Assembly (NCBI GenBank): GCA_023142625.1
Contig: JAGLJD010000090.1
Span: 1-19,936 of the forward strand
From: Candidatus Parcubacteria bacterium
GTDB taxonomy: Bacteria; Patescibacteriota; Patescibacteriia; JAACEG01
Direction: 5' to 3'
Length of the DNA: 19,936 nucleotides
The first letter of the stretch is position 1; each line of letters begins with the position of its first letter. A program made the position numbers and the translations under genes. The notes below the pieces were generated by a model. The model was given only the letters and a program-made list of their open reading frames with translations, had not been told where the DNA came from and did not search any database. This document shows, in pieces, positions 4,544-18,292 of this stretch.

Positions 4544-7500
4544 TCAACGACCGTACAAGCCCCAAATGTCCATGCTACCGCCCATACCTCTATCCAAAAT
4601 CCAGTTGCCGCCGGTAGTGGTCTCTGGATTGCCCTTGGGTTCGGTGATGTATACATAATCAATCTTGTCTTGGCTGCCGTACAAGGTCTCGATTATGCCG
4701 CCGTCCGAGCTGCCTGGCTCGTTGCCCGAGCCGTCCATATCACTGTTCCATTCGCCGTACCAGCTGTCAAAGCCACTGTCAAGGCTACTGTTGTCCGAGC
4801 CGTTGCCCGAGCCACCGATCAAATCGTTGTCCGAGCTACTGTCCAAATCGTCATCCAGAATGTTAGAGTTACCGTCCGAGTTGTCGGTCGGGCTAGGGCT
4901 AGTGTCTAAGCCGACGTCAGAGCTATCTAAGTTGTCCGAGCCGCTGTCAAAGATGCTGTCCGAGCCGCCGATCAAGATTGTCGGGACGCCGTTCAGAGCG
5001 CCGTTCAGATTGCTTTCTCGGACATCCAATCCCCGTTCAATTTCCCTGTCTACACTAAAGCCGGCACCGTCCCATGTTCCTTGTACTCCATCCCAGATGC
5101 CAAAGTCCTTCCAGTTAGGATAATACTCATCCCAAAAGCCCGAACTCTCTAAGTCGTCTAAATTCTTAAAGAACTCCGAATTATCCGGACTGTTCGCGTG
5201 AACCATTTCCATGTACTCTGAATGATAATTATCATCCGAGATATTCGGAATGTCTGATTCGTCATCCGGGATATTCGAGTCCTCGGTTACTTCGTCATCT
5301 ATAACGTCATCCGTGATATTCAAGTCGTTAAAGTCATCGTTTATCTCGTTGAGCAGATGCTCATCTACTATGTGATGAACATTACCCAACAATTTGTGCC
5401 CAACAACAACTGCTGCGCATATAAAGACGGTTCCAACTACGACACCGCCTATACCAAAAGGCAGAGTTAAGAATGCCAATTCTGTTGCATGGCCGGCGAC
5501 CATGATTTGATAACCTACTCCGGCTTTAACTCCTCCGGCCAAAACCATGCTGACAGATACTATTATAGCATCTGCAAGCTCAAGCGCAGCTACTCCGATA
5601 AACCATGCTTTTGAAGGAGAATATTCTATTGCGCCTGTTTTGCCTCCATTAATAATTCCATAATCACTCTCAATTTGGAAGGTAATGGACTTCATCTCCT
5701 TATCCATCACTATCCATGCCTGTCCGGTTGTGATTGGGCGCTCAAGGATTGCAATTATAAACCCTTGTTCTAGATAACGCCTTATAGCGTTTCTTATTTC
5801 ATTCTTTGCGGAAAATTTTCCAAGGTCTTCCGTGTTTTCCAAAATAACCACGGAAATTCCCTGTTCCATTGCTTCAGCAAAACAGCTTGCAGTGGAAAAA
5901 GCTTTTGTTTTAAACAAAGATTGAAGAGTTAAGCTTTCATATAAGCTGCAGATAGTAGCTTTTATTACAAACCAACTCTTTACTTCAGCCTCTTTGTCAT
6001 TGTCCTGGGTTTCTTGTAGCGAAACTGCCATTGAGGGATCTCTAACTACATTTATCTCAACACCTTCGTTTGTCCAAGATGTCAAGACCAATGATAAAGC
6101 GTCCACATTGTCTATCTTGGCCATTTTAGCCAAATTCTGAATAGATTTTCCCGAGAGAAAACAATACATTTTCCCTGTAAGGCTGAGAATTTTTAATTTT
6201 GCTTCATCAGGCATTTCCTGATCTGGGTCAAGATCATCAACTAAAGATTTTAATTTTTCAGCTTCTTGCCACAGGTCTTTCTCATTCTGTTGAATACCCG
6301 GAGTAAAAACATGTTTATCCTCGCCAGCAATTAATTTTATCTCCGAATATTCCCAGCCTTTTTTACCTGGTTCAAAAAATCCGACTCTAATGTTTTGAGT
6401 CTCGTTTAAGCCAGCAGAAGTCCCTGTTGCCACAATCTCCGCGCCGAGTTTTAAAACAGGCAGATATCCTTCTTCGGAACTTTCAATATAGGTTATTGAG
6501 AGTTCTTCTGTTAGTTCAGAAAGTGAGCACTGGAAAAATTCACCGCCTGACATCGTTATTTCTATCTTTGCCATTAGTTCTTCCGGCAGTGATGAAAATT
6601 GTCTTACAACTTTCCATCGATCCAAATCTACCCCTCTTTCTTTTTCTGTGGGGTAATACTGATTAATTTCTCTTGACCCGAAAAATTCTTTCGGAGTCAA
6701 ATTTCCCACAGTATTGTTAAAAATACTTTCTTGTTCTTTTAAAGCATTTCTAACTAAATCAGGATCAAGCAAAATAGACTCTTTTGAATCTACTGAGCTA
6801 AAAATAGACCTTGTCTTCTCGCCTACCTCTATTTCCGCGCTGTACCCCTCTGTCCGTTCATGGCTTTTATATGACGGATCCAAGGTGATGGTTCGGCCAT
6901 CTCCGTACATATTATGTACGGATACCCTAGGTTGCATAACTATAAAGTCACTAAAATGCTCGTTTAAAGGAATGATTGGAATGTATCTCTTGCCCAACAT
7001 CAGACCAGCTGCATAGGGACTTTCAGCCCCTGTCCAGCTCATCATCTCTTCGCCGGTTAGTGTCATGATGACTTCTTCAAGAAAGACATCATAGCCAGCT
7101 ACAATTAGAAGATCGTGCAAAAGAACGCATTTCTCCCAAGGACTTGCTCTATTAGCATGAAGGGTTTTAATTGAACTATTACGTAGTCCATAATAGAATT
7201 CTGTCTCAATCTTGTAAACATAGTCAAAAATTTCAACAGGATCATACTTTAGAGTTATAAAGGAAAAATTACGAATCTCTTCATTAATGATCTCATTGCC
7301 AGCAGAATACGTGTATTCTTCACTTAGCGCTAGCATTAATTCCATTGCTCTGGCTTCTGTGATTTCCTGCCTTAACCTGAAAAAGTCCTCTTGAACTATA
7401 AAGGGATTGCTAGGTCCTTTATCTATACTGAAAGCCAAAGGCTTTCGTAAATCGATAAATTCATCTGAAAAATCAACATTTGCCAATGCAGGCATACCTT

Positions 7501-7552
7501 GACCTGCGCCAAAAAAACAAACAATTATAAGCCAAACGATAAACTTTCTCAT
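4544..7552 (-). CDS. Large secreted protein with degenerate transglutaminase-like domain and acidic tail
   Basis: A 1002-residue protein if started at the ATG at 7552, which has AAGGAG seven bases upstream and begins a clear signal peptide (MRKFIVWLIIVCFFGAG, cut near PALA). A 20-codon N-terminal extension from a TTG at 7612 is disfavoured; that TTG is the start of a TTGACA -35-like hexamer. Residues about 104-155 (DPVEIFDYVYKIE...ASPWEKCVLLHDLLIVAGYDV) resemble the transglutaminase-like fold of RHS-associated secreted proteins, and GRTITLDPSY resembles its Asp motif. The usual catalytic Cys position appears to be Pro, so activity is doubtful. Hydrophobic stretches occur near 690-760. The last quarter is rich in Asp, Ser, Asn and Gly and ends GGSMDIWGLYGR. 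There is no sorting signal. The function is unknown; a surface or secreted role is inferred. Confidence 0.85.
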   Translation of the reverse strand: MRKFIVWLIIVCFFGAGQGMPALANVDFSDEFIDLRKPLAFSIDKGPSNPFIVQEDFFRLRQEITEARAMELMLALSEEYTYSAGNEIINEEIRNFSFITLKYDPVEIFDYVYKIETEFYYGLRNSSIKTLHANRASPWEKCVLLHDLLIVAGYDVFLEEVIMTLTGEEMMSWTGAESPYAAGLMLGKRYIPIIPLNEHFSDFIVMQPRVSVHNMYGDGRTITLDPSYKSHERTEGYSAEIEVGEKTRSIFSSVDSKESILLDPDLVRNALKEQESIFNNTVGNLTPKEFFGSREINQYYPTEKERGVDLDRWKVVRQFSSLPEELMAKIEITMSGGEFFQCSLSELTEELSITYIESSEEGYLPVLKLGAEIVATGTSAGLNETQNIRVGFFEPGKKGWEYSEIKLIAGEDKHVFTPGIQQNEKDLWQEAEKLKSLVDDLDPDQEMPDEAKLKILSLTGKMYCFLSGKSIQNLAKMAKIDNVDALSLVLTSWTNEGVEINVVRDPSMAVSLQETQDNDKEAEVKSWFVIKATICSLYESLTLQSLFKTKAFSTASCFAEAMEQGISVVILENTEDLGKFSAKNEIRNAIRRYLEQGFIIAILERPITTGQAWIVMDKEMKSITFQIESDYGIINGGKTGAIEYSPSKAWFIGVAALELADAIIVSVSMVLAGGVKAGVGYQIMVAGHATELAFLTLPFGIGGVVVGTVFICAAVVVGHKLLGNVHHIVDEHLLNEINDDFNDLNITDDVIDDEVTEDSNIPDDESDIPNISDDNYHSEYMEMVHANSPDNSEFFKNLDDLESSGFWDEYYPNWKDFGIWDGVQGTWDGAGFSVDREIERGLDVRESNLNGALNGVPTILIGGSDSIFDSGSDNLDSSDVGLDTSPSPTDNSDGNSNILDDDLDSSSDNDLIGGSGNGSDNSSLDSGFDSWYGEWNSDMDGSGNEPGSSDGGIIETLYGSQDKIDYVYITEPKGNPETTTGGNWILDRGMGGSMDIWGLYGR

Positions 7553-7618
7553 GAGATCTCTCCTTTTCGGTTTTCTTTTTAATGTAAGAAAAATGAAAAA
7601 AATGATTGTCAAGGAAAA

Positions 7619-8300: not shown

Positions 8301-9017
8301 TCAATCCTCAATCAGTTCCGCTATTATCACTAGCCGATTTTTTTGCGAATAAATCGGATCGCAAGTGAACAGAGTTAAGGTCGGCTTTTCTGTTTTCTCT
8401 AAAATTGACAAGTCGCGCGGACTAACTATTTTTATCTCATTTATCTTATAATAATATTTTTTTTGCTCCCAAACCGCCAAGATAATATCCCCTATCTCAA
8501 GCTTATGAAACAGATAAAAAGTCAGATTGCTCGGAGGCAAATATTTAAAGCGGTGCCCGGTAATCACGGTATTGCCTGCTTTGTCAGGCGAGGAACTTCC
8601 CGGTATCCGCCAAGCGCCATGCGACAGCGCCCAATCTTCATTAGACGAATCAATAATCGGCGCATTTACGCCGATTTTAGCGATAATTACGCGGTTATTA
8701 TATTCTGCCTGTGATGCAGGATAAGCGACGGCTGGCTGGACCTGCGGCAAATCAACTTCTTTTTCAACTTGTTTTTCTTGATTATTTTGTCCATTTTCTA
8801 AAACAAAAGGTTCGCTTTTTATAATTTCGCCTGTTTTTTGCTTTACGGTTTCAAAATCCTGCCAGTCAATGCTCGAAGGTTCGCCTTGTTGCGATAACCT
8901 ATATTTTACTGCTGGATAAAACGGCAAAGCTATTAAATAAACTATAATGCCGATAATTAAAAACTCTAGCGTAAAAACTAGAGTTTTTATTAACCTTTTT
9001 TTATTTATTTGAAACAT
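8301..9017 (-). CDS. Class E-like sortase
   Basis: A membrane-anchored cysteine transpeptidase of 238 residues that cleaves a C-terminal sorting motif and transfers the protein to a surface acceptor. The N-terminal anchor is at about 12-33, followed by a Gln/Glu-rich stalk (50-100) and the sortase beta-barrel (about 108-238). The triad residues are visible: H155 in VITGHRF, C219 in TLFTCDP and R228 in KNRLVI. The TLxTCDPxYSxxxRLVxxAEL signature best fits class E, whose preferred motif is LAXTG, and the gene just upstream encodes a protein ending in LAATG plus a membrane helix. The start lies 6 bases after that gene's stop with no close Shine-Dalgarno, so coupled translation is likely. A near-identical 52-bp relic of its 3' end lies at 4012-4063. 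Confidence 0.93.
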   Translation of the reverse strand: MFQINKKRLIKTLVFTLEFLIIGIIVYLIALPFYPAVKYRLSQQGEPSSIDWQDFETVKQKTGEIIKSEPFVLENGQNNQEKQVEKEVDLPQVQPAVAYPASQAEYNNRVIIAKIGVNAPIIDSSNEDWALSHGAWRIPGSSSPDKAGNTVITGHRFKYLPPSNLTFYLFHKLEIGDIILAVWEQKKYYYKINEIKIVSPRDLSILEKTEKPTLTLFTCDPIYSQKNRLVIIAELIED

Positions 9018-9023
9018 AGATTA

Positions 9024-11678
9024 TCACAAATACTTTCTCCTTAATATTATCGCGGAGGCAGACAGCGCTACAAGCGCTAAAATCAAAATCATAAGTTCTT
9101 TTACACTAAAACCGGTTGCCGCCAATTCAATACTCACATCAACAGAAGCGCTGATAGGTTCGTGGTTGTCTGCGCTGGCTTGCGCTATATTAGCGTATAT
9201 TCCAGTTGCCGCAGTCGCGCTGATAGAAACTTCATATTCCGTAATTTTTTCCTGTCCCGGCTCAATATCTCCAAGCTGCCATGTCTTTAAAGTTCCGCCT
9301 CCGTCAATAAAGGCAAATTCTGCCGGCAAAGTATCGGTTAGCACTGTATTATAAGCCGCCATATTGCCGATATTTGCTATATTCACTTTATAGATAACGG
9401 TGTCGCCAGAATTCGCAAAATCCTTATTAACTGTCTTGCTAATTGTCAACTCGGGCGCGCCTTCTTCGCCCAAGACAATCGGACCGCAGCAGTCTGCCAT
9501 ATTAAATGATAATTCCTTACCAAGAACTTCAGGAGAAGCGCTGGAAATCGGTTTAAAGTAATAAAGAATATTTCCGCCTAAATTCTCAATAGTCATTGAA
9601 TGAATTGTCACTTTATCAGCGCTTTCGGCAGTGGAGCTTGCGTAACCGTAATTTGGCGGCAAGCCAGTTGATGGATGCGATTTTGTGTCATAAACCACGC
9701 GGCTTGTCGCGTATTTATTGGTCCGCCAACTAACAAGAACAGAAGTTTCTGATATGCATGATACTTGCTCGTCATGCACTGTCAGATAAGTCTCGCCTCC
9801 GCCACCGCCACCGCCTCCGCCGCCGCTTAATTTACAATCAATAGTGCAGGATTTTCCGCTTGGCACGCCATCGCTGCCATCGCATGCTTCATAACCGTCA
9901 TTATTAGGACCGCCAAGCAAAGCGTCATTCGGGCTTTGTTTAATGCCGTCGCCGCAATAAGTATCAGGTCCGCCTTGTCCCGGCTTATAATTGCCAAAAT
10001 TATAGATAAGCTGATCTCCTTGATTTATAGTAAATTCATAATACGGCGGATTAATTGGCGCTGTTGCCGTCCAGCCTTCATCATCTTCTAAAACTTCTCC
10101 CAATATATAATTTCCCGCTTCTATATCTGTAAAGCAATAATGTCCTGCCGGATCTGAATCTGTTATTCTATGATCAACTAAAACAGTCTGCTCAACTATC
10201 TTATAAATTTTAACTGTTAAACTTCCTGTATTATTTGGATAATATATGTCATAAATTAAAAATTCAACTGTGCTGCTGGAACCTGCCATATTGATAGAAT
10301 AAATATGATCTGCTGAATAATCGCCCCAATCAACTTCTGCCCCGTCTACTAATAAATTCAATAAAATCGTGCCTTCGCTTTCATAACCTCTTACTGAATC
10401 AGTCCAAGGCAAACTGCTGCTGGCTTGATAATCATCCTGCGAATATTTAGCGTCAGCCTCAATATCCTCAGGGCTCCCGCCTCCGGCAAAATAAGCGCCG
10501 CTTGCTTCAATGCGATAATTATCGCCGTTATTTAAAACAATATTAGAGGTTGTGGCAGCGCCATCTATGGCATAAACCGTTACTATGTCAACTAATTGTT
10601 CTGTCTCCTGTTTTTCAAACAGATTAATTGTCCAGCTATAAAGCCCGTAATCTTCGCCATTCATTTCGCCGTCTAAATTATAATCATAAAATTTAATGCC
10701 GCAAATTGATCCTGTTTCTTCTGTATAATGGTTGGCAAAATCAATAGTAGTGGTCGCTTCTCCTGCTGGAAGGTTAAAGTAGTAGAAAGTTTGGCCAGCA
10801 GGCAAGGTCTGTAACCAATTTTCCCGCTGAACTTCAGCTACTCCGTAATTACCTGAATCTAAACCGGCAAACTCATAGCAGCCGTTGCTGGTAGTTGTTG
10901 TGGCTATTAATGAGCAAGCGCCTGGATCGCCTGAACCTAAACTGTCTAAATAGCTAATTGGCAAAAGCTCTCCTGAAGGCAGGTATGGGCATCCTATCAA
11001 CTGTATCTCCCAGCCATTTATTGTGTCCTCGTCTTGATCAATTATGCCGTTATTATTAACATCATTATATTTACAGCCAGAAATTGAAGAATAATCATCA
11101 CCCTCAATCTCAATGGCAATATCGCAGCCAAAGTCGCCGGAAGAATCAACTACGCCATAGCCATGCTCCTGCGCGACCATGCCTGCTATAGCTGGCGTTC
11201 TTAAATGCACCTGCCAAGTATCTATTCTGTCGTCTTCGCCTACCCATGCGTCTGTTAAAATATCTAATGGAGTATCAGAATCCATGCTTGAAATCGTAAG
11301 ATGATCGCATAAATCGCGGTAGCATTTTTCATAATCTGCCGGGTTATTGCGGCAATGTTCTTTATCTTCTTCAAGCAGCGGCTTTGGATGAGTGGAGATA
11401 GAATAATTATCAGGATTTCCTGAATCTACAAATTCAACAGTAAAATATTTATCAGTTTCTTCGCCTGGAAAGCGCAAGCCAAAATCAAGATGGCTAATTG
11501 TGAATCTCAAATTTTCAATATTTGCCAAAACATTAACCATAATGCCTTGCAATGAAATAACGGTTGCTAATATAAAAAACGCAAAAACAAAAATACGAAC
11601 ATATTTTGTCCACTCACGACAAAATTTCCTCTTCGGCTTTATAAAATTTATCTGATTTTTGTTTTTATGTAAATTCAT
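9024..11678 (-). CDS. Multidomain sortase-anchored surface protein (SdrD-like, FnIII-like, DUF11)
   Basis: An 884-residue predicted cell-surface anchor protein. The N-terminal membrane or signal segment is at about 27-47. Residues about 48-190 (MVNVLANIENLRF...LDFGLRFPGE, CYRDLCDHLT, FGCDIAIEIEG) are homologous to the whole secreted part of the 298-aa protein at 15731. Two SdrD B-like beta domains with Ca-binding-like loops (NDVNNNGIIDQDED; YDYNLDGEMNGED) follow; the second is interrupted by a long beta-rich insertion. Then come a Cys segment (CGDGIKQSPND), a ten-Gly linker, an FnIII/phosphatase-like domain, and a DUF11 domain (ELTISKTVNKDFANSGDTV). The C-terminus is LAATG, a hydrophobic helix and RRKYL. 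The ATG at 11678 has no Shine-Dalgarno and lies 23 bases after the upstream stop. Confidence 0.9.
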   Translation of the reverse strand: MNLHKNKNQINFIKPKRKFCREWTKYVRIFVFAFFILATVISLQGIMVNVLANIENLRFTISHLDFGLRFPGEETDKYFTVEFVDSGNPDNYSISTHPKPLLEEDKEHCRNNPADYEKCYRDLCDHLTISSMDSDTPLDILTDAWVGEDDRIDTWQVHLRTPAIAGMVAQEHGYGVVDSSGDFGCDIAIEIEGDDYSSISGCKYNDVNNNGIIDQDEDTINGWEIQLIGCPYLPSGELLPISYLDSLGSGDPGACSLIATTTTSNGCYEFAGLDSGNYGVAEVQRENWLQTLPAGQTFYYFNLPAGEATTTIDFANHYTEETGSICGIKFYDYNLDGEMNGEDYGLYSWTINLFEKQETEQLVDIVTVYAIDGAATTSNIVLNNGDNYRIEASGAYFAGGGSPEDIEADAKYSQDDYQASSSLPWTDSVRGYESEGTILLNLLVDGAEVDWGDYSADHIYSINMAGSSSTVEFLIYDIYYPNNTGSLTVKIYKIVEQTVLVDHRITDSDPAGHYCFTDIEAGNYILGEVLEDDEGWTATAPINPPYYEFTINQGDQLIYNFGNYKPGQGGPDTYCGDGIKQSPNDALLGGPNNDGYEACDGSDGVPSGKSCTIDCKLSGGGGGGGGGGETYLTVHDEQVSCISETSVLVSWRTNKYATSRVVYDTKSHPSTGLPPNYGYASSTAESADKVTIHSMTIENLGGNILYYFKPISSASPEVLGKELSFNMADCCGPIVLGEEGAPELTISKTVNKDFANSGDTVIYKVNIANIGNMAAYNTVLTDTLPAEFAFIDGGGTLKTWQLGDIEPGQEKITEYEVSISATAATGIYANIAQASADNHEPISASVDVSIELAATGFSVKELMILILALVALSASAIILRRKYL
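9027..9125 (-). other. C-terminal LAATG cell-wall sorting signal
   Basis: The last 33 codons form a textbook tripartite signal: LAATG (9111-9125), a hydrophobic helix (VKELMILILALVALSASAII) and a basic tail (LRRKYL). LAXTG is the known preference of class E sortases, matching the enzyme encoded immediately downstream. It is the only such signal found among the window's proteins. Confidence 0.88.
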
Positions 11679-11701
11679 AAATATATTTATTCAATAATTG
11701 T

Positions 11702-14065
11702 TTAATCGTTTGGCTGACCGCCAGTATCATCGCCTCCGCCTGTATCAGCCGGATTACTAACATCAGCCGCGGAACTATCACCGCCAGTATCTTGCCCGCC
11801 GCCGGCATCGCCTGCTGTGTCTGGATTATCTGCGCCGCTGCCAGCGTCTCCGCCCATATCGCCCGAGTCATCACTATCAGTTGAATTACTATCTCCTGAG
11901 TCATCTGTTCCACTGCCTTGATCATTTTGATCGCCGCCAGCGCCAGTATCTGCGCCATTATCTTGCCCGCTGGCAATAGCCGAGTCTCCAGAATCACCAG
12001 CATCATCTGCTCCGCTGCCTTGATCGTCTTCATCTTGCTCACCGTCGGTATCGCCTGTTTCGTCCGAATCGCCAGCATCATCGGTTTGCCCATCATCTTC
12101 AACTGCGTCATCGCCACCGTCAGCATCGTCATCGCCGCCGTCAGCATCGTCATCGCCAGAGTTTTCTCCGCCGTCGTCATCTATTGCGCCGCCTTCTGTT
12201 CCGCCGTCTTGACCGCTGGCAGTATCCGCGCCGTCATCTGCTGTCTCGCCTTGTGTTCCGCCGTCTTGATCTTGATTATCGTCTTGATCGTCTTCATTTT
12301 GCTCATCGTCGGTATCGCCTGTTTCGTCCGAATCGCCAGCATCGTCGGTTTGCCCGTCATCTTCAACTGTGTCACCGCTATCATCGCCAGTATCACCATC
12401 GCTGTCATTTCCATCTTCTTCGCCGTCTTTATCAGCGCCGCCGCCTTGATCTTCATCGGTTTCGTCTTCTTCTGCTTCGTCCCCGTTGGTTTGTCCTGAA
12501 TTATCAGCTGTCTGACCGTCTGCGTCATCCGCTGGATTGCTTTCTCCTGTTTCGCTATAGTCTTCCGCAGGCGATCCTGCCGCGGCCGATCTATGAGATG
12601 TCCCTGATTCTGAAGCGCCTGTTGAAGCCGAACTTGATCCTGCTGAAAAATCTTGTTCTTCTTCCTCGTATTCTTCTAATATATTTGGCGCGCCGGGAGT
12701 AGGAACTGGATCAACCCATTCGCCTATACCGTCTGGGATGCGGGCGTAAGATTTATTTTCTGGCACCGCGCCACTACCGCTGCCGACAACTGAATCATCG
12801 TAATTAGGATTGCCCGGCGTTGGCGTTAATGAATCATAATGGCTGCCGCTATAACTGTGGCTATCTGTTAAATTATCATTATAATCAAAGAAATTAATCG
12901 TGTCATTGTCATTATTTAAAGAAAAATTATGCGAGGTGCAGCTGTCTCCTCCTTTACGATAAACTACCAAGAAATCATTTGGCCTTATCATAACACCGCC
13001 TGTATTGGTGCGACAGGCCTCAACATCAATCCTGTTGCCTCCGGCGTCAGTTAAATAATAACCTGCTAAATTAACTGAATAAATAGCGGACAAATTATAC
13101 AATTCAACCCATTCGCCGTTAGGCATAGCAGCCGCGTCATCGCCGATAGGATCAGGCAAAAACTCATTAAGAACTACGCCTGGGCATAAAGGACCGCCAT
13201 TTCTGCTTTCGCCGGCAATAATCAAAAAATCACCGAAAATCATGCCAGGCCCGACAGGCGCGGAACAGCTGGTATGGATTTGAACATTCTCTACATCATC
13301 AATATAAATAGTAATTTCTGTTCCTAATGTAGGATGAACTCCCCATGTCCCGACAAAACTGAATTGTTCGCCAGAATTTACTGCATCATTAAATACTATA
13401 ACTCCGTCGCTTTTCTGAACAACTTTAATTACTGCAGTTGAAGTTCCGTTATATTGCATAGTTAAACTTGTTATCTTGCCGTCGCAAGGCCCGCATTCTT
13501 CTATTGAACAATCAGAATTGCAACCATCGCCGTCAATCAAATTTCCGTCGTCGCATTGTTCGCCCGGGTCAACTATGCCGTCGCCGCAATATGAATCGCA
13601 ATACACGGCTGAAACATCGTAAGTTTCGCTCATAATCGCGCTTTGCAGCAATTCCCCGTCTCTTTCATGGCAGGTTCTCGCTTTGACAGTCGCGCTGTAT
13701 GTTAAAGGAAACGGATCTGCATATAATGAGCCGTTCGGAGCATAGCAATCCGGATCGCTGCCGTCAGTAGTATAATAAATAGTCGTAGTTGTTCCGGTTA
13801 AAGTGGCGCTTAAAGTTACAACTAAGCTGCCGTCGTTGCAAAACTCCCCGCTCGGCGGATCAATATTTGGAACATCATTAACGATTTTAGCCGTAACATT
13901 TATTATATGCGCTTCAAAAGCGTTAAATAGCTGCGCTTGCGAAACAACAAAAACCATTGCCAAAAGAACGACGCAAACCATCCTCGTTAGATTCTTTTTG
14001 AAAAAAATTATTCTGTTTTTTCGCTTTTGTATTTTATACATAGGTATAAAATTTATATTAATCAT
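11702..14065 (-). CDS. Secreted lamin-tail/Cys-rich protein with Asp-Gly-rich tail
   Basis: A 787-residue exported protein. After a signal/membrane segment (about 29-47) comes FEAHIINVTAKI, almost the same as the processed region of the 298-aa protein, suggesting the same signal peptidase. Next are a chitobiase-C-like beta domain (IYYTTDGSDP), a DUF4215-like Cys repeat (YCGDGIVDPGEQCDDGN), a domain with IHTSCSAPVGPG and SRNGGPLCP, and a lamin-tail domain (VVLNEFLPDP...GEWVELYNLS) with a second PTPGAPN unit. The last about 300 residues are Asp/Gly/Ser/Glu-rich and probably extended and Ca-binding. The ATG overlaps the signal peptidase stop as ATGA. There is no LPXTG-type signal or C-terminal membrane helix, so it must be retained differently or released. 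Confidence 0.88.
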   Translation of the reverse strand: MININFIPMYKIQKRKNRIIFFKKNLTRMVCVVLLAMVFVVSQAQLFNAFEAHIINVTAKIVNDVPNIDPPSGEFCNDGSLVVTLSATLTGTTTTIYYTTDGSDPDCYAPNGSLYADPFPLTYSATVKARTCHERDGELLQSAIMSETYDVSAVYCDSYCGDGIVDPGEQCDDGNLIDGDGCNSDCSIEECGPCDGKITSLTMQYNGTSTAVIKVVQKSDGVIVFNDAVNSGEQFSFVGTWGVHPTLGTEITIYIDDVENVQIHTSCSAPVGPGMIFGDFLIIAGESRNGGPLCPGVVLNEFLPDPIGDDAAAMPNGEWVELYNLSAIYSVNLAGYYLTDAGGNRIDVEACRTNTGGVMIRPNDFLVVYRKGGDSCTSHNFSLNNDNDTINFFDYNDNLTDSHSYSGSHYDSLTPTPGNPNYDDSVVGSGSGAVPENKSYARIPDGIGEWVDPVPTPGAPNILEEYEEEEQDFSAGSSSASTGASESGTSHRSAAAGSPAEDYSETGESNPADDADGQTADNSGQTNGDEAEEDETDEDQGGGADKDGEEDGNDSDGDTGDDSGDTVEDDGQTDDAGDSDETGDTDDEQNEDDQDDNQDQDGGTQGETADDGADTASGQDGGTEGGAIDDDGGENSGDDDADGGDDDADGGDDAVEDDGQTDDAGDSDETGDTDGEQDEDDQGSGADDAGDSGDSAIASGQDNGADTGAGGDQNDQGSGTDDSGDSNSTDSDDSGDMGGDAGSGADNPDTAGDAGGGQDTGGDSSAADVSNPADTGGGDDTGGQPND
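12021..12374. repeat. Two 90-bp direct repeats inside the Asp-rich tail
   Basis: 12021-12110 and 12285-12374 are nearly identical and lie 264 bases (88 codons) apart in frame. Both encode VEDDGQTDDAGDSDETGDTD followed by an acidic stretch. They indicate repeat-driven expansion of the tail, and length variation between strains is expected. Confidence 0.8.
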
Positions 14066-14490
14066 ATATTTATTTGCGATAATTTTCCTAAAAACGGAAT
14101 TCTAATCGGCTTGTTTCTAAAATTCAGCGTTTTTCCGATCAATTTGTCATATTTAATCGGCTTGTCTTTTATATTATTAGCGTCGCCTTTAGTGATAAAA
14201 GTATCTTCTTTCAATTCAATTACTCGGTGAATGGTAAATCCTTTTTCGTTCGCGTAGACTACGATATCTCCTACTGCAATCTCATTTTTGCCGCTAACGC
14301 CTTTGATTAAAATCAGGTCTCCTTTTTTCAGCTGCGGCCACATTGAGCTTGATGTTATGGAAGCGATCGGATATTCGCTGTCTAATATTTTTTTCAGCGC
14401 TGCTGGAGTTCCCCAGACAATCAGAGTAAAGACTAAAATATAAGCTGTCCATTCTAAAATTATTTTAATTATTTTATTATTTTTTACCAT
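14062..14490 (-). CDS. Signal peptidase I, SipW/archaeal (ER) type
   Basis: A 142-residue membrane protease (S26B-type) that removes signal peptides. A membrane segment at about 8-32 precedes the catalytic domain. Catalytic S49 lies in TSSSMWP, H88 (instead of the Lys of the standard bacterial enzyme) in FTIHRV, and the Asp in TKGDAN (D103) is followed by NIKDKP. This Ser-His-Asp form is the type that processes TasA/camelysin-like fibre proteins in Bacillus. The start overlaps the preceding gene by 7 bases (GCATGGTAA), and the stop overlaps the next start (ATGA), so the three are translated together. The likely substrates are the FEAH(V/I)INVTAKI-bearing proteins at 15731 and 11702. Confidence 0.93.
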   Translation of the reverse strand: MVKNNKIIKIILEWTAYILVFTLIVWGTPAALKKILDSEYPIASITSSSMWPQLKKGDLILIKGVSGKNEIAVGDIVVYANEKGFTIHRVIELKEDTFITKGDANNIKDKPIKYDKLIGKTLNFRNKPIRIPFLGKLSQINI

Positions 14491-14987
14491 GCTTTCGGCA
14501 GTTTAAAAATCCAGACGAAGCCAGTGTACTTTTCTCCGATCGGCGCTGACACAGGCATATACAAACTGAATTCCAATTTCTTTTCATCTCCTTTTTTCAT
14601 TGTAAAATTATTCTCGCTTAGTTTGACTAATTCCGCGATTGATCCGAACTTTAAAACAAATATAAAAGTGTCAATCCCGCCGGCGTTCAAGGTGACATAC
14701 CGAGTAGCAGATGTATCTGCTGACAAATCTCCGAAATCCAGCCGCTCGTCCGTAGGATTGACCCCGACTTTTTTCTCGCCTTCTATGACTAAAACCTGCG
14801 CGCTGTATTTATCCGCTATGGCAACCTGAACGATTATTATAAAAATTAAAACGCCGATAATCGCCCAAATTATTCTTTTTAAAGTTGTTCTTTTGGGTTT
14901 CTTATTGTTCTGCTCCGCGGCGGCTTTTTCAACCACGCTGGACGGCCGCCATGGCTCTGCTCGGTTTTCTCTGTTTTGTGTCTCCAT
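14484..14987 (-). CDS. Membrane-anchored beta-sandwich protein of the surface operon
   Basis: A 167-residue protein: a polar N-terminus with a basic stretch, one membrane helix (about 38-58, IIWAIIGVLIFIIIVQVAIA), then a beta-rich outside domain. It includes VGVNPTDERLDFGDLSADTSATRYVTL, where the LDFG phrase echoes IDFG/LDFG in the 298- and 884-aa proteins. The rest (VLKFGSIAELVKLSENNFTMKKGDEKKLEFSLYMP) looks like an Ig-like, non-enzymatic fold. It is first in the operon and overlaps the signal peptidase gene. A role as an assembly chaperone or accessory subunit is an inference. No Shine-Dalgarno is seen at the ATG. Confidence 0.8.
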   Translation of the reverse strand: METQNRENRAEPWRPSSVVEKAAAEQNNKKPKRTTLKRIIWAIIGVLIFIIIVQVAIADKYSAQVLVIEGEKKVGVNPTDERLDFGDLSADTSATRYVTLNAGGIDTFIFVLKFGSIAELVKLSENNFTMKKGDEKKLEFSLYMPVSAPIGEKYTGFVWIFKLPKAW

Positions 14988-15049
14988 ATATTTGTATTAA
15001 AATGTTAAAAATATCAATATCTATCGCTGAATTTATAAAATAAGTTGTT

Positions 15050-15087
15050 GGTTGAGGCAAATCGTTTTTTTGCGATTCGCCTCAACC
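15050..15087. repeat. TGAGGCAAA-family hairpin 1
   Basis: A 15-bp stem with one mismatch, arms GGTTGAGGCAAATCG and CGATTCGCCTCAACC, loop of seven T and one G. It lies just after the stop of the 108-aa zinc-ribbon gene on the minus strand. No T-run follows on the minus strand, so it is not a standard terminator. Confidence 0.8.
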
Positions 15088-15092
15088 GAAGT

Positions 15093-15419
15093 TTAAGCAA
15101 TTATTCTTAAGAAAGGGGGTTGCCGCGGTTTTAATCTTTTCTGTAGCGCCGCGATATCATTTTTGCATTGCCGGCATACTATTGGCAATCTATCGTCTTC
15201 TCTTTTTTCTTTTGTGAATTCCCCGCAAATCTTGCAGCGCTGTTTTTCTTTGTTTTCTCCATTTGAGAAAAACAATACTTCTTTTTCGCAATCTGGACAT
15301 GCGTTCCATGTGTTGCCAAAAAGGCTAACTTCTTTCATTTCTGTCCCGCAATTGGGACATTTTTCTTTTTTTCCTTGCTCTTTCGCTACCTTTTTGACTG
15401 TTCTTTTAAAATTGCTCAC
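15093..15419 (-). CDS. Double zinc-ribbon small protein
   Basis: A 108-residue protein from a GTG at 15419 preceded by AAAGGAGGAAAAAA. This start is preferred to the long frame extending back to 15536, which runs into the neighbouring 59-aa gene and lacks a ribosome site. A basic N-terminus (VSNFKRTVKKVAKEQGKKEK) is followed by C21-x2-C24...C41-x2-C44 and C62-x2-C65...C82-x2-C85, two zinc ribbons. The first shares the pattern CPxCGxEMxEVxxxGxxWxxC with the genes at 15448 and 17352. The tail is basic. Nucleic-acid or protein binding is possible, but the function is unknown. Confidence 0.8.
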   Translation of the reverse strand: MSNFKRTVKKVAKEQGKKEKCPNCGTEMKEVSLFGNTWNACPDCEKEVLFFSNGENKEKQRCKICGEFTKEKREDDRLPIVCRQCKNDIAALQKRLKPRQPPFLRIIA

Positions 15420-15447
15420 TTTTTTCCTCCTTTTTTTAAAATTCGCT

Positions 15448-15627
15448 CTACGCGAGCCCATGAAGATGATTTGCCTTAATCTCGTCCCTGTCTTTTTTTG
15501 GAAAGACGCGGGGAAAGACATAAACTCCGCCATCACATTTCGGGCATTTCAGCCACTCGCGACCGAGCGCATCCATCTTTTTCGTTTTTTCCGCCCCGCA
15601 AATGGGACAAACTTCTTTTCCCGCCAT
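15448..15627 (-). CDS. Small zinc-ribbon protein (59 aa)
   Basis: ATG at 15627 with AAGGAGG six bases upstream. The protein begins MAGKEVCPICGAEKTKK and carries C7, C10, C28 and C31 as one four-Cys ribbon with LGREWLKCPKC between. It ends at TAG 15448, 28 bases before the next GTG start, so both are probably on one transcript. It belongs to the same paralogous family as the other ribbons in this array. Confidence 0.82.
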   Translation of the reverse strand: MAGKEVCPICGAEKTKKMDALGREWLKCPKCDGGVYVFPRVFPKKDRDEIKANHLHGLA

Positions 15628-15682
15628 TTTTTCCTCCTTTTTTGTTTTTGTTTTTCGGTTTTTACTCCTCTAATCTCCCCCT

Positions 15683-15703
15683 CCCCAGTTTAAAAAACTG
15701 GGG
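15683..15703. repeat. CCCCAGTTT palindrome
   Basis: A perfect 9-bp stem, CCCCAGTTT (15683-15691) and AAACTGGGG (15695-15703), with an AAA loop, 28 bases after the stop of the 298-aa gene on the minus strand. It is flanked by G-rich sequence rather than a T-run, so it may be a stability hairpin or an interspersed palindrome of the CCCTCCCCA...TGGGGAGGG kind. Confidence 0.6.
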
Positions 15704-15730
15704 AAAGGATGCATTAAGGGATTAAAATTA

Positions 15731-16627
15731 CTAAGTAAGAGGGGGATCATTAGGCACATCCTCATTATCATAAGGATCTATACAATCAGGATCTTCTGGA
15801 TAATCAATATAACCATCTTGATCATTGTCAAGACCATCACTACAAGTGCCAGTATTCGCGCTAATTCCAGTAACTTCAATCCATAAATCACAGCCAAAAG
15901 TTTGGCTTTCTAAACTTGCCGGCAATGTCCAATCCCATGGATTCACAACATCAGGATTGATGCCCCAAACCCATTCATCGTAAGTCTGGTCGCATTGTCC
16001 GTCAAAACAAGGAACTGCTAAATCAATAACCCATTTATCTGTTATGTCGTTAACTGATTGAACTAAATGACCAGTCGCTATTACAGATGTTTCATGAAAA
16101 GCGTCTACTTCGCAGTCATAAGGATATGCAGAATCACACCTATCTGTTAACATAGTATGGTCGTCAATATGCTTGTGCTTTGACAAATAAGGACATAAAA
16201 TTGGGTAGCAATGGATATAATAAGGATCATTCGGATCGTCTGCGTCAACAGGACCCTCCTCTAAACAATATTCATGAGCAACAATTCCTTCGTTTGGATT
16301 TTGTGGGTCAGGATAGATCATTGCATAAGGATCTCCATCTGGATTTTGATCGCTTGGCCTTACTTTTGGCTTCTGCTTAATAACATAATTAACATCATCA
16401 ACCCTGTCTTCTGCTAAAAATGAACTGCTTAAAGCGATAGTCAAATTTTCTTTAATAAACTCCTGCGGAAAAACTGTTCCAAAATCAATATGTTCTGTGT
16501 CAACAGCTAAAGCATTCTCAATTTTAGCCGTTACATTAATGACATGAGCTTCAAAAGCTACTAAGCCCATTGCTCCTACAGCCACCGCAGCCACAAGAGC
16601 CAAACTTAATAAAATTCTCTTTTTCAT
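15731..16627 (-). CDS. Secreted TasA/camelysin-like candidate subunit (298 aa)
   Basis: An N-terminal signal peptide (MKKRILLSLALVAAVAVGAM) is followed by AFEAHVINVTAKIENAL, shared with the 787-aa protein and, more loosely, with the 884-aa one. The secreted domain (about 30-265; IDFGTVFPQEF, a long Asp/Pro insertion, CYPILCPYL, DKWVIDLAVPC, TFGCDLWIEVTG) is homologous to residues about 48-190 of the 884-aa protein. The C-terminus has a MopE-like acidic Cys motif, CSDGLDNDQDGYIDYPEDPDC in two pieces, likely Ca-binding. No anchor is seen. This looks like the abundant subunit of a surface assembly whose anchored partner is the 884-aa protein. The TasA relation rests on context, not on clear sequence. 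There is no Shine-Dalgarno at the ATG, which follows a structured leader. Confidence 0.85.
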   Translation of the reverse strand: MKKRILLSLALVAAVAVGAMGLVAFEAHVINVTAKIENALAVDTEHIDFGTVFPQEFIKENLTIALSSSFLAEDRVDDVNYVIKQKPKVRPSDQNPDGDPYAMIYPDPQNPNEGIVAHEYCLEEGPVDADDPNDPYYIHCYPILCPYLSKHKHIDDHTMLTDRCDSAYPYDCEVDAFHETSVIATGHLVQSVNDITDKWVIDLAVPCFDGQCDQTYDEWVWGINPDVVNPWDWTLPASLESQTFGCDLWIEVTGISANTGTCSDGLDNDQDGYIDYPEDPDCIDPYDNEDVPNDPPLT

Positions 16628-16794
16628 AAAATTAAGTGGCGATTTTATAAAGATTAAAATTAATCATTTAATCTTTTAAAAATCTTTTAATAAATAAAAT
16701 TTATTAAAACTTAGTTTTTGTTTTCATCGACCTTTATTATAGATCTTTATAAAAAAATCTATTGAAAACTAAGATAATAATTATAAATTTTAAA
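16628..16794 (-). promoter_or_regulatory. Structured AT-rich leader of the 298-aa gene
   Basis: The 167-base region before the start contains competing inverted repeats. CTTAGTTTT (16710-16718) pairs with AAAACTAAG (16765-16773), while GTTTTCA (16720-16726) pairs with TGAAAAC (16763-16769). ATAGAT (16739-16744) and ATCTAT (16757-16762) can nest inside. The two larger stems share bases, so they exclude each other, as in an attenuator or thermosensor. No clear -35/-10 pair was identified. Confidence 0.35.
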
Positions 16795-16836
16795 GGTTAG
16801 TTGGCTGAGGCAAAACATTTTTGCCTTACCTCAACC
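16795..16836. repeat. TGAGGCAAA-family hairpin 2
   Basis: TTGGCTGAGGCAAAA and TTTTGCCTTACCTCAACC form an imperfect hairpin that overlaps the last codons and stop of the 50-aa zinc-ribbon gene. Inner arms GGCAAAA/TTTTGCC pair perfectly; the outer part is disturbed by the TAA stop and mismatches. Confidence 0.65.
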
Positions 16837-16978
16837 GTATTTTGAATATCGATCTCTGTGATACGCAACCTCTGGGACAAGCCTTGATCGGCTTTACAAC
16901 AGACTCTTTCGCAAACCCCTTTATCTCTTTTAGCTCTCTTCCGCATTGCGGACAATATTCTTTTTTTTCTTCTGACAT
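16826..16978 (-). CDS. Small zinc-ribbon protein (50 aa)
   Basis: ATG at 16978, preceded by a G-rich site (TAGGGGGGAAA). The product begins MSEEKKEYCPQCGRELKEIK and has C9, C12, C34 and C38 (the last pair is CPRGC, spacing three), then a basic tail SIFKIRLR. It is a different frame from the longer 79-codon frame covering the same DNA, which has no ribosome site and an unbalanced composition. The 3' end runs into the hairpin at 16795-16836. Confidence 0.72.
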   Translation of the reverse strand: MSEEKKEYCPQCGRELKEIKGFAKESVVKPIKACPRGCVSQRSIFKIRLR

Positions 16979-16994
16979 TTTCCCCCCTACTTTT

Positions 16995-17020
16995 TTTTAA
17001 TTTATAATTATAAATTAAAA
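16995..17020. repeat. Perfect 26-bp AT palindrome
   Basis: The 26 bases are their own reverse complement (TTTTAATTTATAA and its mirror). They sit 16 bases upstream of the 50-aa gene start and right after hairpin 3 in the minus direction. This could be an operator for a dimeric regulator or, with no loop, only a cruciform-prone stretch. Confidence 0.5.
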
Positions 17021-17026
17021 GGTTGG

Positions 17027-17058
17027 GTTGGGGCAAAACTGTTTCGTTTCACCCCAAC
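17027..17058. repeat. TGAGGCAAA-family hairpin 3 (diverged)
   Basis: GTTGGGG (17027-17033) pairs with CCCCAAC (17052-17058), and after a CA/CA mismatch AAAC pairs with GTTT. The arms are a diverged version of GTTGAGGCAAA. It lies just after the stop of the 39-aa gene on the minus strand. Confidence 0.7.
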
Positions 17059-17066
17059 AAATTAAA

Positions 17067-17186
17067 TTAAACATTATTTCCGTTTTTTGCCCACATTAAG
17101 TATCTTTCGTTTATCCATTTTATTTTTTCGTTAAATTTCTTTTCTTCTTCTTCCTCTTCTTTCTTTCCTTTTTGTTTTTTTGACAA
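17067..17186 (-). CDS. 39-aa charged small protein, TTG start
   Basis: Found from its ribosome site: GGAGGGAAAAA then TTG at 17186. The product reads MSKKQKGKKEEEEEEKKFNEK then IKWINERYLMWAKNGNNV, ending TAA at 17067. An N-terminal Lys/Glu block is followed by an aromatic-rich helix. It has no Cys, so it is not a zinc ribbon, although it occupies an array position with the same upstream sequence (130-bp repeat) and the same type of 3' hairpin. Confidence 0.65.
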   Translation of the reverse strand: MSKKQKGKKEEEEEEKKFNEKIKWINERYLMWAKNGNNV

Positions 17187-17193
17187 TTTTTTC

Positions 17194-17323
17194 CCTCCTT
17201 TTTTAGGGTTTAAATTTTATTTTTTTAAATCCTCTATTTTCATTCCCTGATTTTTTAAAATCAGAGCGTGATAAAGAAAATTCAAACTGAATAATTTTAA
17301 AAGGGTTGGCTGAGGCAAATCGC
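17194..17323. repeat. 130-bp direct repeat, copy 1
   Basis: It matches 17567-17696 over 130 bases with only four differences and no gaps (period 373 bases). It includes the Shine-Dalgarno region of the 39-aa gene, its leader, and the first arm of hairpin 4. It holds a small hairpin, CTGATTTT/AAAATCAG, that copy 2 changes by one base compatible with G-U pairing on the minus-strand RNA. Confidence 0.9.
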
Positions 17324-17343
17324 GGAAAGGCGATTTGCCTCAG
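17310..17343. repeat. TGAGGCAAA-family hairpin 4
   Basis: A perfect 14-bp stem, CTGAGGCAAATCGC and its complement, with loop GGAAAG, 9 bases after the stop of the 69-aa zinc-ribbon gene. It is not followed by a T-run in the minus direction. Confidence 0.85.
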
Positions 17344-17351
17344 TTGCTTTT

Positions 17352-17561
17352 TTATGTATATCCCAACGCTTCAAGTTTGGATATAGCTTCTTTTACAGCC
17401 TCTGTAAAATTAAAAATTGCTGTTTTTTCATTTGTCCTAGGGGACACAAGGACTTTAAAATCCCCTTGGCAGTTTTTCACGCATGTGTCCCATAAAAATC
17501 CCGTTTCTTCCACTTCAGTCATCTCTGCCCCGCAATTAGGGCATTTTTTTGTTCTTTTCAT
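17352..17561 (-). CDS. Small zinc-ribbon protein (69 aa)
   Basis: ATG at 17561 with AAGGAGG and an A-run upstream. The protein begins MKRTKKCPNCGAEMTEVEE; C7, C10, C27 and C31 form a ribbon with CVKNC spacing three, and GFLWDTC fits the family's GxxWxxC phrase. The C-terminal half (TAIFNFTEAVKEAISKLEALGY) is a likely helix. It is flanked on both sides by the 130-bp repeat, so it looks like an inserted or duplicated unit. Confidence 0.85.
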   Translation of the reverse strand: MKRTKKCPNCGAEMTEVEETGFLWDTCVKNCQGDFKVLVSPRTNEKTAIFNFTEAVKEAISKLEALGYT

Positions 17562-17566
17562 TTTTT

Positions 17567-17696
17567 CCTCCTTTTTTAGGGTTTAAATTTTATTTTTTTA
17601 AATCCTCTATTTTCATTCCCTGATTTTTTAAAACCAGAAAGTGATAAAGAAAATTCAAACTGAATAATTTTAAAAGGGCTGGCTGAGGCAAATCGC
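17567..17696. repeat. 130-bp direct repeat, copy 2
   Basis: This is the partner of 17194-17323 and forms the leader and ribosome site of the 69-aa gene. The differences lie in positions matching TCAGAGCG versus CCAGAAAG and GGTTGG versus GGCTGG. Both copies keep a short open frame ending NQGMKIEDLKK-stop just before the Shine-Dalgarno, but the differences are non-synonymous, so I do not claim it is coding. Confidence 0.9.
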
Positions 17697-17714
17697 TTTC
17701 TGTGATTTGCCTCA
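17684..17714. repeat. TGAGGCAAA-family hairpin 5
   Basis: TGAGGCAAATCGC (17684-17696) pairs with GTGATTTGCCTCA (17702-17714) around a TTTCT loop, with one mismatched or wobble position. It lies 9 bases after the stop of the 58-aa gene. Confidence 0.8.
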
Positions 17715-17722
17715 ACTGAAGT

Positions 17723-17899
17723 TTAATAACTTAGAGACGCTGATTTTGGCAAATCACTATTGGTCTGCCGAAACAACTTCTCCTCTTGCTCATCAGTCCA
17801 TATTCCCTCTAGGGGAATTTGAGGCTTGCTTTTTTCTAAATCGCCCATATGTTTCGGCGGTAATTTTTTGTCTCTATTTTTTTCTTTTTTTTCTGCCAC
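17723..17899 (-). CDS. 58-aa charged small protein, GTG start
   Basis: GTG at 17899 follows AAGGAGGGGAAAA. The product begins MAEKKEKNRDKKLPPKHMG and continues with KPQIPLEGIWTDEQEEKLF and a Ser-rich end SASLSY. It is hydrophilic with no Cys, no signal and no membrane helix. It is the first gene of the array, with a possible promoter near 18229-18259. I do not recognise a family. Confidence 0.7.
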   Translation of the reverse strand: MAEKKEKNRDKKLPPKHMGDLEKSKPQIPLEGIWTDEQEEKLFRQTNSDLPKSASLSY

Positions 17900-17964
17900 T
17901 TTTCCCCTCCTTTTTATTTTTTTTGAATTTGAAATTCACCCTTTAAAATTTTATCTTGCATTTA

Positions 17965-18004
17965 GGTTCCACAGCCCTGCGGGACTATGGAACCAACGGC
18001 TGTG
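17965..18004. other. Pseudoknot-capable GC-rich element
   Basis: Two 7-bp pairings interleave: GGTTCCA (17965-17971) with TGGAACC (17988-17994), and CACAGCC (17970-17976) with GGCTGTG (17998-18004). The first arms overlap by two bases, so the stems may alternate or form an H-type pseudoknot. CCC/GGG can also pair inside, and ATCCT/AGGAT follows at about 18011-18022. This GC-rich island in AT-rich spacer lies upstream of the small-gene array. I do not recognise a riboswitch. Confidence 0.45.
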
Positions 18005-18085
18005 AATAAAATCCTAAAGGATAAATTCCATTTTTTAAAAAACAGTAAGAGGAACGGTAGCCTTCCTTTGCTTTTTTAAAAGAAC

Positions 18086-18124
18086 AAAAAAATCTACACT
18101 AAAAATTATAGCGCAGATTTTTTT
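18086..18124. terminator. Bidirectional terminator-like hairpin
   Basis: AAAAAAATCT (18086-18095) pairs with AGATTTTTTT (18115-18124), giving A- and T-runs on both strands. It is about 170 bases past the stop of the GldG-like gene and probably ends that transcript. The surrounding 18005-18292 region is otherwise AT-rich with no gene. Confidence 0.65.
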
Positions 18125-18228
18125 CTAACTTTATTTATAATAATTTTAATTGTGGCGTTTCCATTTATCTTCATATTCATAATTTTTAATAATAATGAAT
18201 CTTAACAAATGAACACTATACTATAATA

Positions 18229-18259
18229 ATTATAATAATTATAAATAAAAATAAGTCAA
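18229..18259 (-). promoter_or_regulatory. Possible promoter for the small-gene array
   Basis: Minus-strand TTGACT (18259-18254), a 19-base spacer, then TATAAT (18234-18229). The spacer is longer than ideal, and the terminator-like hairpin lies between it and the first array gene, so its target is uncertain. Confidence 0.3.
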
Positions 18260-18268
18260 GAGAAAACC

Positions 18269-18277
18269 TGTGGATAA
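18269..18277 (-). promoter_or_regulatory. Single DnaA-box 9-mer
   Basis: The minus strand reads TTATCCACA, a perfect DnaA box, next to very AT-rich DNA. Only one copy is seen and no replication gene is adjacent, so it is noted as a site rather than an origin. Confidence 0.3.
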
Positions 18278-18292
18278 CTTAATCCTTAAAAT

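Follow-up and report, generated by a model that had tools for sequence, protein, structure and literature searches.

The TasA/TapA/SipW system of Bacillus subtilis combines a dedicated SipW-type signal peptidase, a beta-sandwich subunit, and an N-terminal sequence block that the subunit has in common with an accessory protein. The donor residues of TasA are 28 to 38 (PMC9674648), and Phe occupies its P2' position (PMC10269814). We describe a candidate fiber locus of Patescibacteria that is alike in these three features (the beta-sandwich by prediction) and in having an aromatic residue at the second place of the block, and that resembles the TasA fiber family rather than belonging to it. It lies on contig JAGLJD010000090.1 of a "Candidatus Parcubacteria bacterium," whose Patescibacteria genome (837 kb, 193 contigs) is 75% complete; the whole stretch of DNA analyzed, 19,936 nt, is called the window below. 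Unlike the TasA operon, this locus adds a membrane protein of predicted PapD-like fold, a block protein without the subunit domain, and a separate domain-only protein that may act as a cap, and in some lineages it has a probable sortase anchor.

SipW-linked extracellular filaments with accessory proteins are also known from Clostridium perfringens (sipW-bsaA) and Bacillus cereus (TasA/CalY/CapP). In the former, srtB lies beside sipW-bsaA and its deletion had no effect (PMC7395162), and assembly in the latter has been termed sortase independent (PMC13082335); in the locus described here, by contrast, the presence of a sortase gene tracks that of a sorting signal. Chaperone-usher pili (type 1, Caf1) would be similar in their donor-strand logic and in the PapD-like fold predicted for a 167-amino-acid (aa) protein of our locus, although this protein is membrane tethered and has a single domain. 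The bacterium that carries it is expected to have one membrane. The FCT pilus operons of Streptococcus pyogenes contain SipA and a sortase (PMC4049620) and likewise join a signal-peptidase-family protein and a sortase in one surface-fiber operon. There, SipA lacks the catalytic Ser and Lys and sortases polymerize the pilins, whereas our peptidase retains its catalytic residues, and a sorting signal is absent from the 298-aa candidate subunit. An earlier sequence-only reading of this DNA had regarded a peptidase and a sortase in one locus as unusual, which is only partly right, since the C. perfringens sipW-bsaA/srtB region and the FCT operons hold both kinds. WxL/WxLIP clusters differ in turn: the 167-aa protein has no Pfam match at an E value of 0.1, and no WxL domain was found in the ten window proteins scanned. 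In the open-access PubMed Central (PMC) literature, searched by title and start of abstract, we found no description of this Patescibacteria system.

A conserved Patescibacteria locus of patchy distribution

Five genes of the locus are tightly packed (Table 1), with every overlap and gap reported by the sequence-only reading present. The 298-aa gene, which the same reading had placed nearby, is not tightly packed with them: some 0.74 kb with two small zinc-ribbon open reading frames (ORFs) separates it from the operon.

We assembled 24 loci containing the 167-aa gene (the window, L002 to L013, L059 to L063, L069, and L081 to L085). Duplicates were merged (L067 with L002, L080 with L004), and L083 and L084 share one genome, giving 23 genomes. 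Twelve named loci came from scanning a single genome of each species with the 167-aa family (Uhr-, Ryan- [n = 2], Giovannoni-, Portnoy-, Azam-, Vogel-, and Wildermuth-, besides unspecified Parcubacteria and two "bacterium" records) and the others from stretches of further genomes. Within about 425 bp 3' of the 167-aa gene and in its orientation, a SipW/Sec11-type signal peptidase gene is present in all 23 loci where the neighbor could be judged; L083 stops at a contig end. The widest gaps, in L062 and L084, may hold small ORFs. A gene for a homolog of the 787-aa protein (787-like) follows the peptidase gene within 170 bp in 22 of 23 loci, the exception being L085, with a different gene order. 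Genes of the 298-aa type, whole or partial, occur in 23 of 24 loci in one to four copies with varying C-terminal parts; L012 begins at the 167-aa gene, and L004 holds only part of a 298-type gene. Homologs of the 884-aa protein (884-like) were seen in 15 of the 24 loci and a sortase gene within the fetched stretch at 6. A second genome of the window's genus, G382, carries the same locus on contig JAGLTA010000109 ("Candidatus Parcubacteria bacterium").

The 167-aa protein has 99 homologs and the 298-aa protein 1,369, the best 120 of which were listed; all informative source names among the matches listed are Patescibacteria groups or an unspecified bacterium. Of 379 genomes sampled evenly across the phylum, the 298-aa profile matched 22, from which 15 were excluded because they matched only its C-terminal part (about positions 237 to 282; 181 to 277 in G163), mostly an acidic Cys repeat. 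Thus, 7 genomes have the full domain, and 6 genomes, all within these 7, have a strong 167-aa homolog. At a contig start (L064), the seventh genome, G247, carries a 787-like fragment together with one 884-like and one 298-type gene. Among 380 genomes of the window's class, strong 167-aa homologs occur in 7 and weak ones in 2. Judged by sequence, the gene set is a real conserved locus of Patescibacteria, patchily present in about 2% of the sampled genomes. Weak 167-aa matches in G023, G130 (one of two places), G444, and G579 lie in surroundings that show no such locus. The check for co-occurrence in related genomes that the sequence-only reading had named thus did not refute its proposal: several Patescibacteria groups have subunit, peptidase, and accessory proteins together in one conserved locus. 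The sortase as a core part of this locus is not supported.

Block and domain in the secreted proteins

The 298-aa protein consists of a signal peptide, a 17-residue conserved block (residues 24 to 40), a beta-sandwich domain reaching to about residue 258, and an acidic Cys tail ending in PNDPPLT, without a sorting signal. Across the 48 proteins of 298 type taken from the loci, the block A[FY]EAH[VI][IV]NVTAxIENAL is almost invariant, and its conservation extends beyond its V-x-A (I, 48/48; N, 46/48; A, 46/48; L, 42/48 at places 12, 14, 15, and 16). The preceding residue is A or S in 47 of the 48, the exception being the window's own V. The 605-aa protein of L009, labeled domain-only by our script, bears the block with a single change and is of the 298 type. 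In a narrower alignment of 28 rows, hand-picked from the 120 best matches, 27 rows reach the block and 13 of its 17 places are identical. The predicted structure has a predicted local distance difference test (pLDDT) score of 86, with residues 23 to 36 below 50; in this monomer model, the block is conserved yet unpaired. Several of the 120 best homologs carry VWA (PF00092), LTD (PF00932), or beta-helix (PF13229) domains. The family fits the major fiber subunit, the role already proposed for it.

Searched against the window's own genome, the 298-family profile gave three matches: the 298-aa protein itself, the N terminus of the 787-aa protein, and a domain of the 884-aa protein. The 787-aa protein has the block AFEAHIINVTA at residues 49 to 59, followed by Fn3_assoc, DUF4215, DUF7467, and LTD (52.8 bits) and by an Asp/Gly-rich tail with 88 D in the last 322 residues, in agreement with its earlier description as a lamin-tail, Asp-rich protein. 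The first 11 places of the block, sharply bounded, occur in all 23 787-like proteins (A, E, and F/Y in 23; H in 22), none of which has the subunit domain by profile. In their tails, P, S, T, E, D, and G account for 55% or more of the final 150 residues in 19 of 23, and Lys plus Arg for at most 7% in 22 of 23. The 787-aa protein is a candidate initiator or cap with a TapA-like role. Very long N-terminal extensions, with the block starting at residue 125 to 157, ahead of the signal segment, were observed in L006, L008, L063, and L069; with the first in-frame start codon used for each gene, part of this length may be spurious.

Conversely, the 884-aa protein has a subunit-type domain (about residues 41 to 210) without the AFEAH part, followed by SdrD_B, DUF11, and a C-terminal LAATG signal, as had been read from the sequence; a hydrophobic stretch and RRKYL come after LAATG. 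The 884-like domain aligns with the 298 family in HHalign at 100% (E = 7.5e-44). No 884-like protein contains A[FY]E.H, and the window's copy keeps a degenerate second half of the block, MVNVLANIENL. A protein search with the 884 N-terminal domain returned only itself and one relative, with candidate length tied to the query. By these comparisons, block and domain appear in three combinations: both in 298-type, the block only in 787-like, and the domain only in 884-like proteins.

Camelysin (PF12389, Peptidase_M73) had no match in the 298-, 884-, or 787-aa proteins at E ≤ 0.1, nor in the window's own genome; the B. subtilis control was found. Aligned by HHalign with 15 Patescibacterial camelysins, the 298 family matched over only 20 signal-peptide columns (85.7%), and the 884-like domain reached 11.4%. 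PF12389 camelysins occur in 49 of the 379 genomes, 44 of them over the cut-off, and in none of the 7 with the 298-type family; this zero overlap is no evidence of exclusion, since about one would be expected by chance. Camelysin-type proteins thus exist in Patescibacteria, and the 298-type family is separate from them by sequence. Solved structures searched with the 298- and 167-aa family profiles gave nothing credible. As to the predicted folds, whose comparison the sequence-only reading had called for, they are compatible with fiber subunits and the matches are only middling; no sequence homology to TasA or camelysin was found.

The signal peptidase passes TIGR02228, of the archaeal type (87.1 bits; cut-off, 51.85), and falls below the cut-off of the Bacillus SipW equivalog NF046067 (47.1 bits; cut-off, 190); of the solved structures, SEC11C and SEC11A match it best. 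All 13 aligned peptidases keep SxSMWP, IHR, and KGDAN, which we take to be the catalytic Ser and a His (not Lys) paired with Asp, and the earlier assignment as a Ser-His-Asp peptidase is borne out. The 167-aa protein has a transmembrane helix (34 to 57) and a predicted PapD/MSP-like domain (75 to 167); this model makes it possibly a membrane-tethered chaperone or assembly factor.

Sorting signals, sortases, and neighboring genes

The window's sortase matches PF04203 (82 bits; cut-off, 26.6) and has Cys (TLFTC), His (ITGHR), and a downstream Arg (NRLV). It scored under the cut-off of every class-specific NCBIfam model matched, the best being class C (NF033745, 69.8 bits; cut-off, 160) ahead of class E (NF033747, 54.7 bits; cut-off, 160). 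Hence, its earlier identification as a sortase is upheld and the class E label is not. It is the only sortase found in this incomplete genome.

Sorting signals were tabulated for 16 884-like proteins, from 15 of the 24 loci and from L064, which lacks the 167-aa gene; L004 was left out because its contig ends within the gene, leaving 15 complete proteins. Five carry a signal (LAATG in the window, LPPTG in L002, LPKTG in L059, LPRVG in L060, and LPRTG in L062). Of the 5, 4 have a sortase gene directly 3' of the 884-like gene, as against 0 of the 10 without a signal (Fisher's P = 0.0037, relatedness ignored); in the case of L060, the genome's sortase is about 12 kb away. Two lineages show this pairing separately, one being the genus of the window and the other the family to which G016 belongs. 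Sortase matches exist in 10 of the 23 locus-bearing genomes (G000, G382, G016, G022, G070, G245, G295, G389, G592, and G745), and none was found in the other 13, which are drafts and in some cases incomplete. In G070, G295, G389, G592, and G745, the sortase is accompanied by an 884-like protein without a signal. L069 has a separate LPRTG gene and a sortase straight after the 884-like gene, and L061 has an LPRTG gene and a sortase some 3 to 5 kb further on; in L003, an upstream 991-aa gene ends in an LVETG-like signal, and its genome, G741, has no sortase match. A plain transmembrane segment forms the terminus instead in the 884-like gene of L084 and, in L082, in the ORF that overlaps the end of the 884-like gene there. 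A PF00746 scan of the window's own genome at a lax E value of 1 gave one subthreshold match (18308-18394, E = 0.044) in the ABC_transp_aux gene; it is uninformative because the window's LAATG was missed and the control matched in 13 of 14 genomes.

Since the signal and a directly following sortase gene go together, the sortase is most likely an optional or accessory anchor of the 884 cap and not a polymerase. The proposal that it fixes or polymerizes the fiber thus retains its first half, and that of the 884-aa protein as anchor or tip is now well supported for a sortase-anchored end piece.

In one Patescibacteria order, Ser replaces the catalytic Cys in 19 distinct sortases, all of which retain the His; the motif is TLQTSYP in most and otherwise TLQTS[YW]P or a close variant. 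We searched 49 genomes of the order and read sequences at the loci given in Table 1 rather than at every match. In the same alignment, 23 other distinct sortases, some from other groups, keep Cys, as does the window's own. An LPxTG-type gene lies beside or at most two genes from the Ser-type sortase in 13 of 19 cases, judged by eye. From their sequences, these would be either serine-based transpeptidases or a conserved noncatalytic form. In G210 (L162, G210:C28:1-5175), a signal-peptidase-like gene, a gene for an 806-aa protein with a camelysin domain, an LPRTG gene, and a gene for a Ser-type sortase stand in a row. This is a separate example of similar wiring, in which the candidate combination of fiber and sortase has a second version built on a camelysin. 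No description of Ser-type sortases was found in the PMC literature searched as above.

Several neighbors of the locus were recorded. A CAP-domain (YkwD-like) membrane protein (2061-3482) has relatives near the fiber locus of distant genomes (L002, L059, L060, L082, L084, and L085). At 4544-7612 lies a 1,022-aa predicted secreted protein with a TTG start and an Asp/Ser/Gly-rich end, for which no family was found in Pfam (E, 0.1), NCBIfam (E, 1), or PHROGs (E, 0.01). An ABC_transp_aux protein, GldG-like and under the cut-off of that model, is encoded upstream of the locus (18293-19864). Between 15093 and 17561, there are small zinc-ribbon-like ORFs at 17561-17352, 16978-16826, 15627-15448, and 15536-15093; repeats of hairpin-like appearance lie between them, around TGAGGCAAA (four copies), and a 136-nt direct repeat occurs at 17188 and 17561 (copies 96% identical). 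A PHROGs search with five window proteins gave no family, and an Rfam scan of 14900-18300 gave nothing at the gathering score.

Table 1. Coordinates of the genes and motifs discussed (window positions unless a locus is named)
Feature	Position	Strand	Remark
298-aa gene	15731-16627	-	Candidate major fiber subunit
11-residue block AFEAHVINVTA codons, 298-aa gene	16526-16558	-	Candidate donor strand
167-aa gene	14484-14987	-	Membrane protein, transmembrane helix and predicted PapD/MSP-like domain
Signal peptidase gene	14062-14490	-	SipW/Sec11-type; 7-bp overlap with 167-aa gene
787-aa gene	11702-14065	-	Block-only protein; 4-bp ATGA overlap with signal peptidase gene
11-residue block codons, 787-aa gene	13889-13921	-	AFEAHIINVTA (residues 49-59)
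884-aa gene	9024-11678	-	Domain-only protein; 23-bp gap to 787-aa gene
LAATG codons, 884-aa gene	9111-9125	-	Sorting signal (residues 852-856)
Sortase gene	8301-9017	-	6-bp gap to 884-aa gene
Ser-type sortase	L059:3294-3896
Ser-type sortase	L061:479-1054
Ser-type sortase	L062:6467-7045
Ser-type sortase	L069:18178-18771
Ser-type sortases, further			15 loci between L089 and L154

Proposed fiber assembly and its alternatives

We put the chances at about even that the locus builds an extracellular protein fiber working like TasA fibers. Trimming by the SipW-type peptidase would uncover, on both the 298-aa subunit and the 787-aa protein, the common N-terminal strand A[FY]EAHVINVTA, which would complete the open beta-sandwich of a neighboring subunit in the fiber. 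The 167-aa membrane protein, with its predicted PapD/MSP fold, may hold the subunits at the membrane or hand them over. Having the strand and no sandwich, the 787-aa protein would start or cap one fiber end; the 884-aa protein, with a sandwich and an incomplete block, would accept the last strand at the opposite end, and in the window's genus the sortase would join this cap to the cell wall via LAATG. A donor-strand fiber with two different caps, as in TasA/TapA, fits because the three combinations of block and domain are all encoded. The sequences show the conservation of the locus, the common block and domain, and the link of sorting signal to adjacent sortase gene; the site of cleavage, strand exchange, the role as chaperone, and the fiber itself with its polarity are deduced from them.

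Alternatively, the locus may be a dedicated secretion cassette, in which AFEAHVINVTA is an extended signal-peptide c-region, read by its own peptidase only and cut at VxA; display proteins would then be exported, one of them wall anchored, without strand-exchange fibers. We hold this to be rather unlikely, although several observations favor it over a fiber. The block ends in V-x-A, a good signal peptidase site, and a cut there would leave the block as a recognition segment only. In 787-like proteins, the V and A are invariant while the middle residue varies, conservation plunges just after VxA, and A or S precedes the block in just 10 of 23; among 884-like proteins, 16 of 16 show [VIA]xA at the corresponding position (cleavage sites and this motif were judged by eye). 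However, the conserved run of the 298-type proteins continues past VxA, A or S precedes their block almost throughout, and residue +2 is hydrophobic in 21 of 23 787-like proteins. An invariant Glu and His would also be odd in a c-region, as would a length of 11 residues, the same as that of the TasA donor strand.

The display domains found among the best 298-type homologs and the one to four copies per locus would suit a sortase-anchored adhesin operon without a fiber, with 298-type proteins secreted as separate display proteins and only the 884-aa protein wall linked. This is clearly unlikely in our view, since it leaves unexplained the block in a domain-less protein, the block-less domain of the 884-aa protein, and the constant PapD-like partner. 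Highly improbable is a covalent pilus in which the sortase links 298-aa subunits to each other and to the 884-aa protein: class C is indeed the best class model for the sortase, but the score is far under its cut-off, the 298-aa protein has no sorting signal, and a sortase is often unmatched in locus-bearing genomes. Sortase polymerization of subunits is disfavored on these grounds.

The donor-strand fiber can be extended to a wider proposal, that of a previously undescribed fiber pathway of monoderm Patescibacteria. A membrane-tethered PapD-fold chaperone and a SipW-type peptidase would assemble donor-strand fibers, each end being set by a protein made for it: one has only the donor strand, and the other, clamped to the wall by a sortase, only the acceptor sandwich, and a sister lineage would clamp with Ser-for-Cys sortases. 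In its entirety, this proposal is unlikely, and we offer it tentatively.

Cultivated Patescibacteria have been described as obligate episymbionts of other microbes that may bind by means of type IV pili (PMC12206443). If the fiber reading is true, the locus would be a second, conserved fiber kit whose subunits bear display domains, VWA and LTD among them, and would provide named, testable genes for surface attachment in uncultured lineages. It would also unite the logics of TasA, chaperone, and sortase systems at one place in the genome, and since each end piece has a gene of its own, the polarity of the fiber would be testable.
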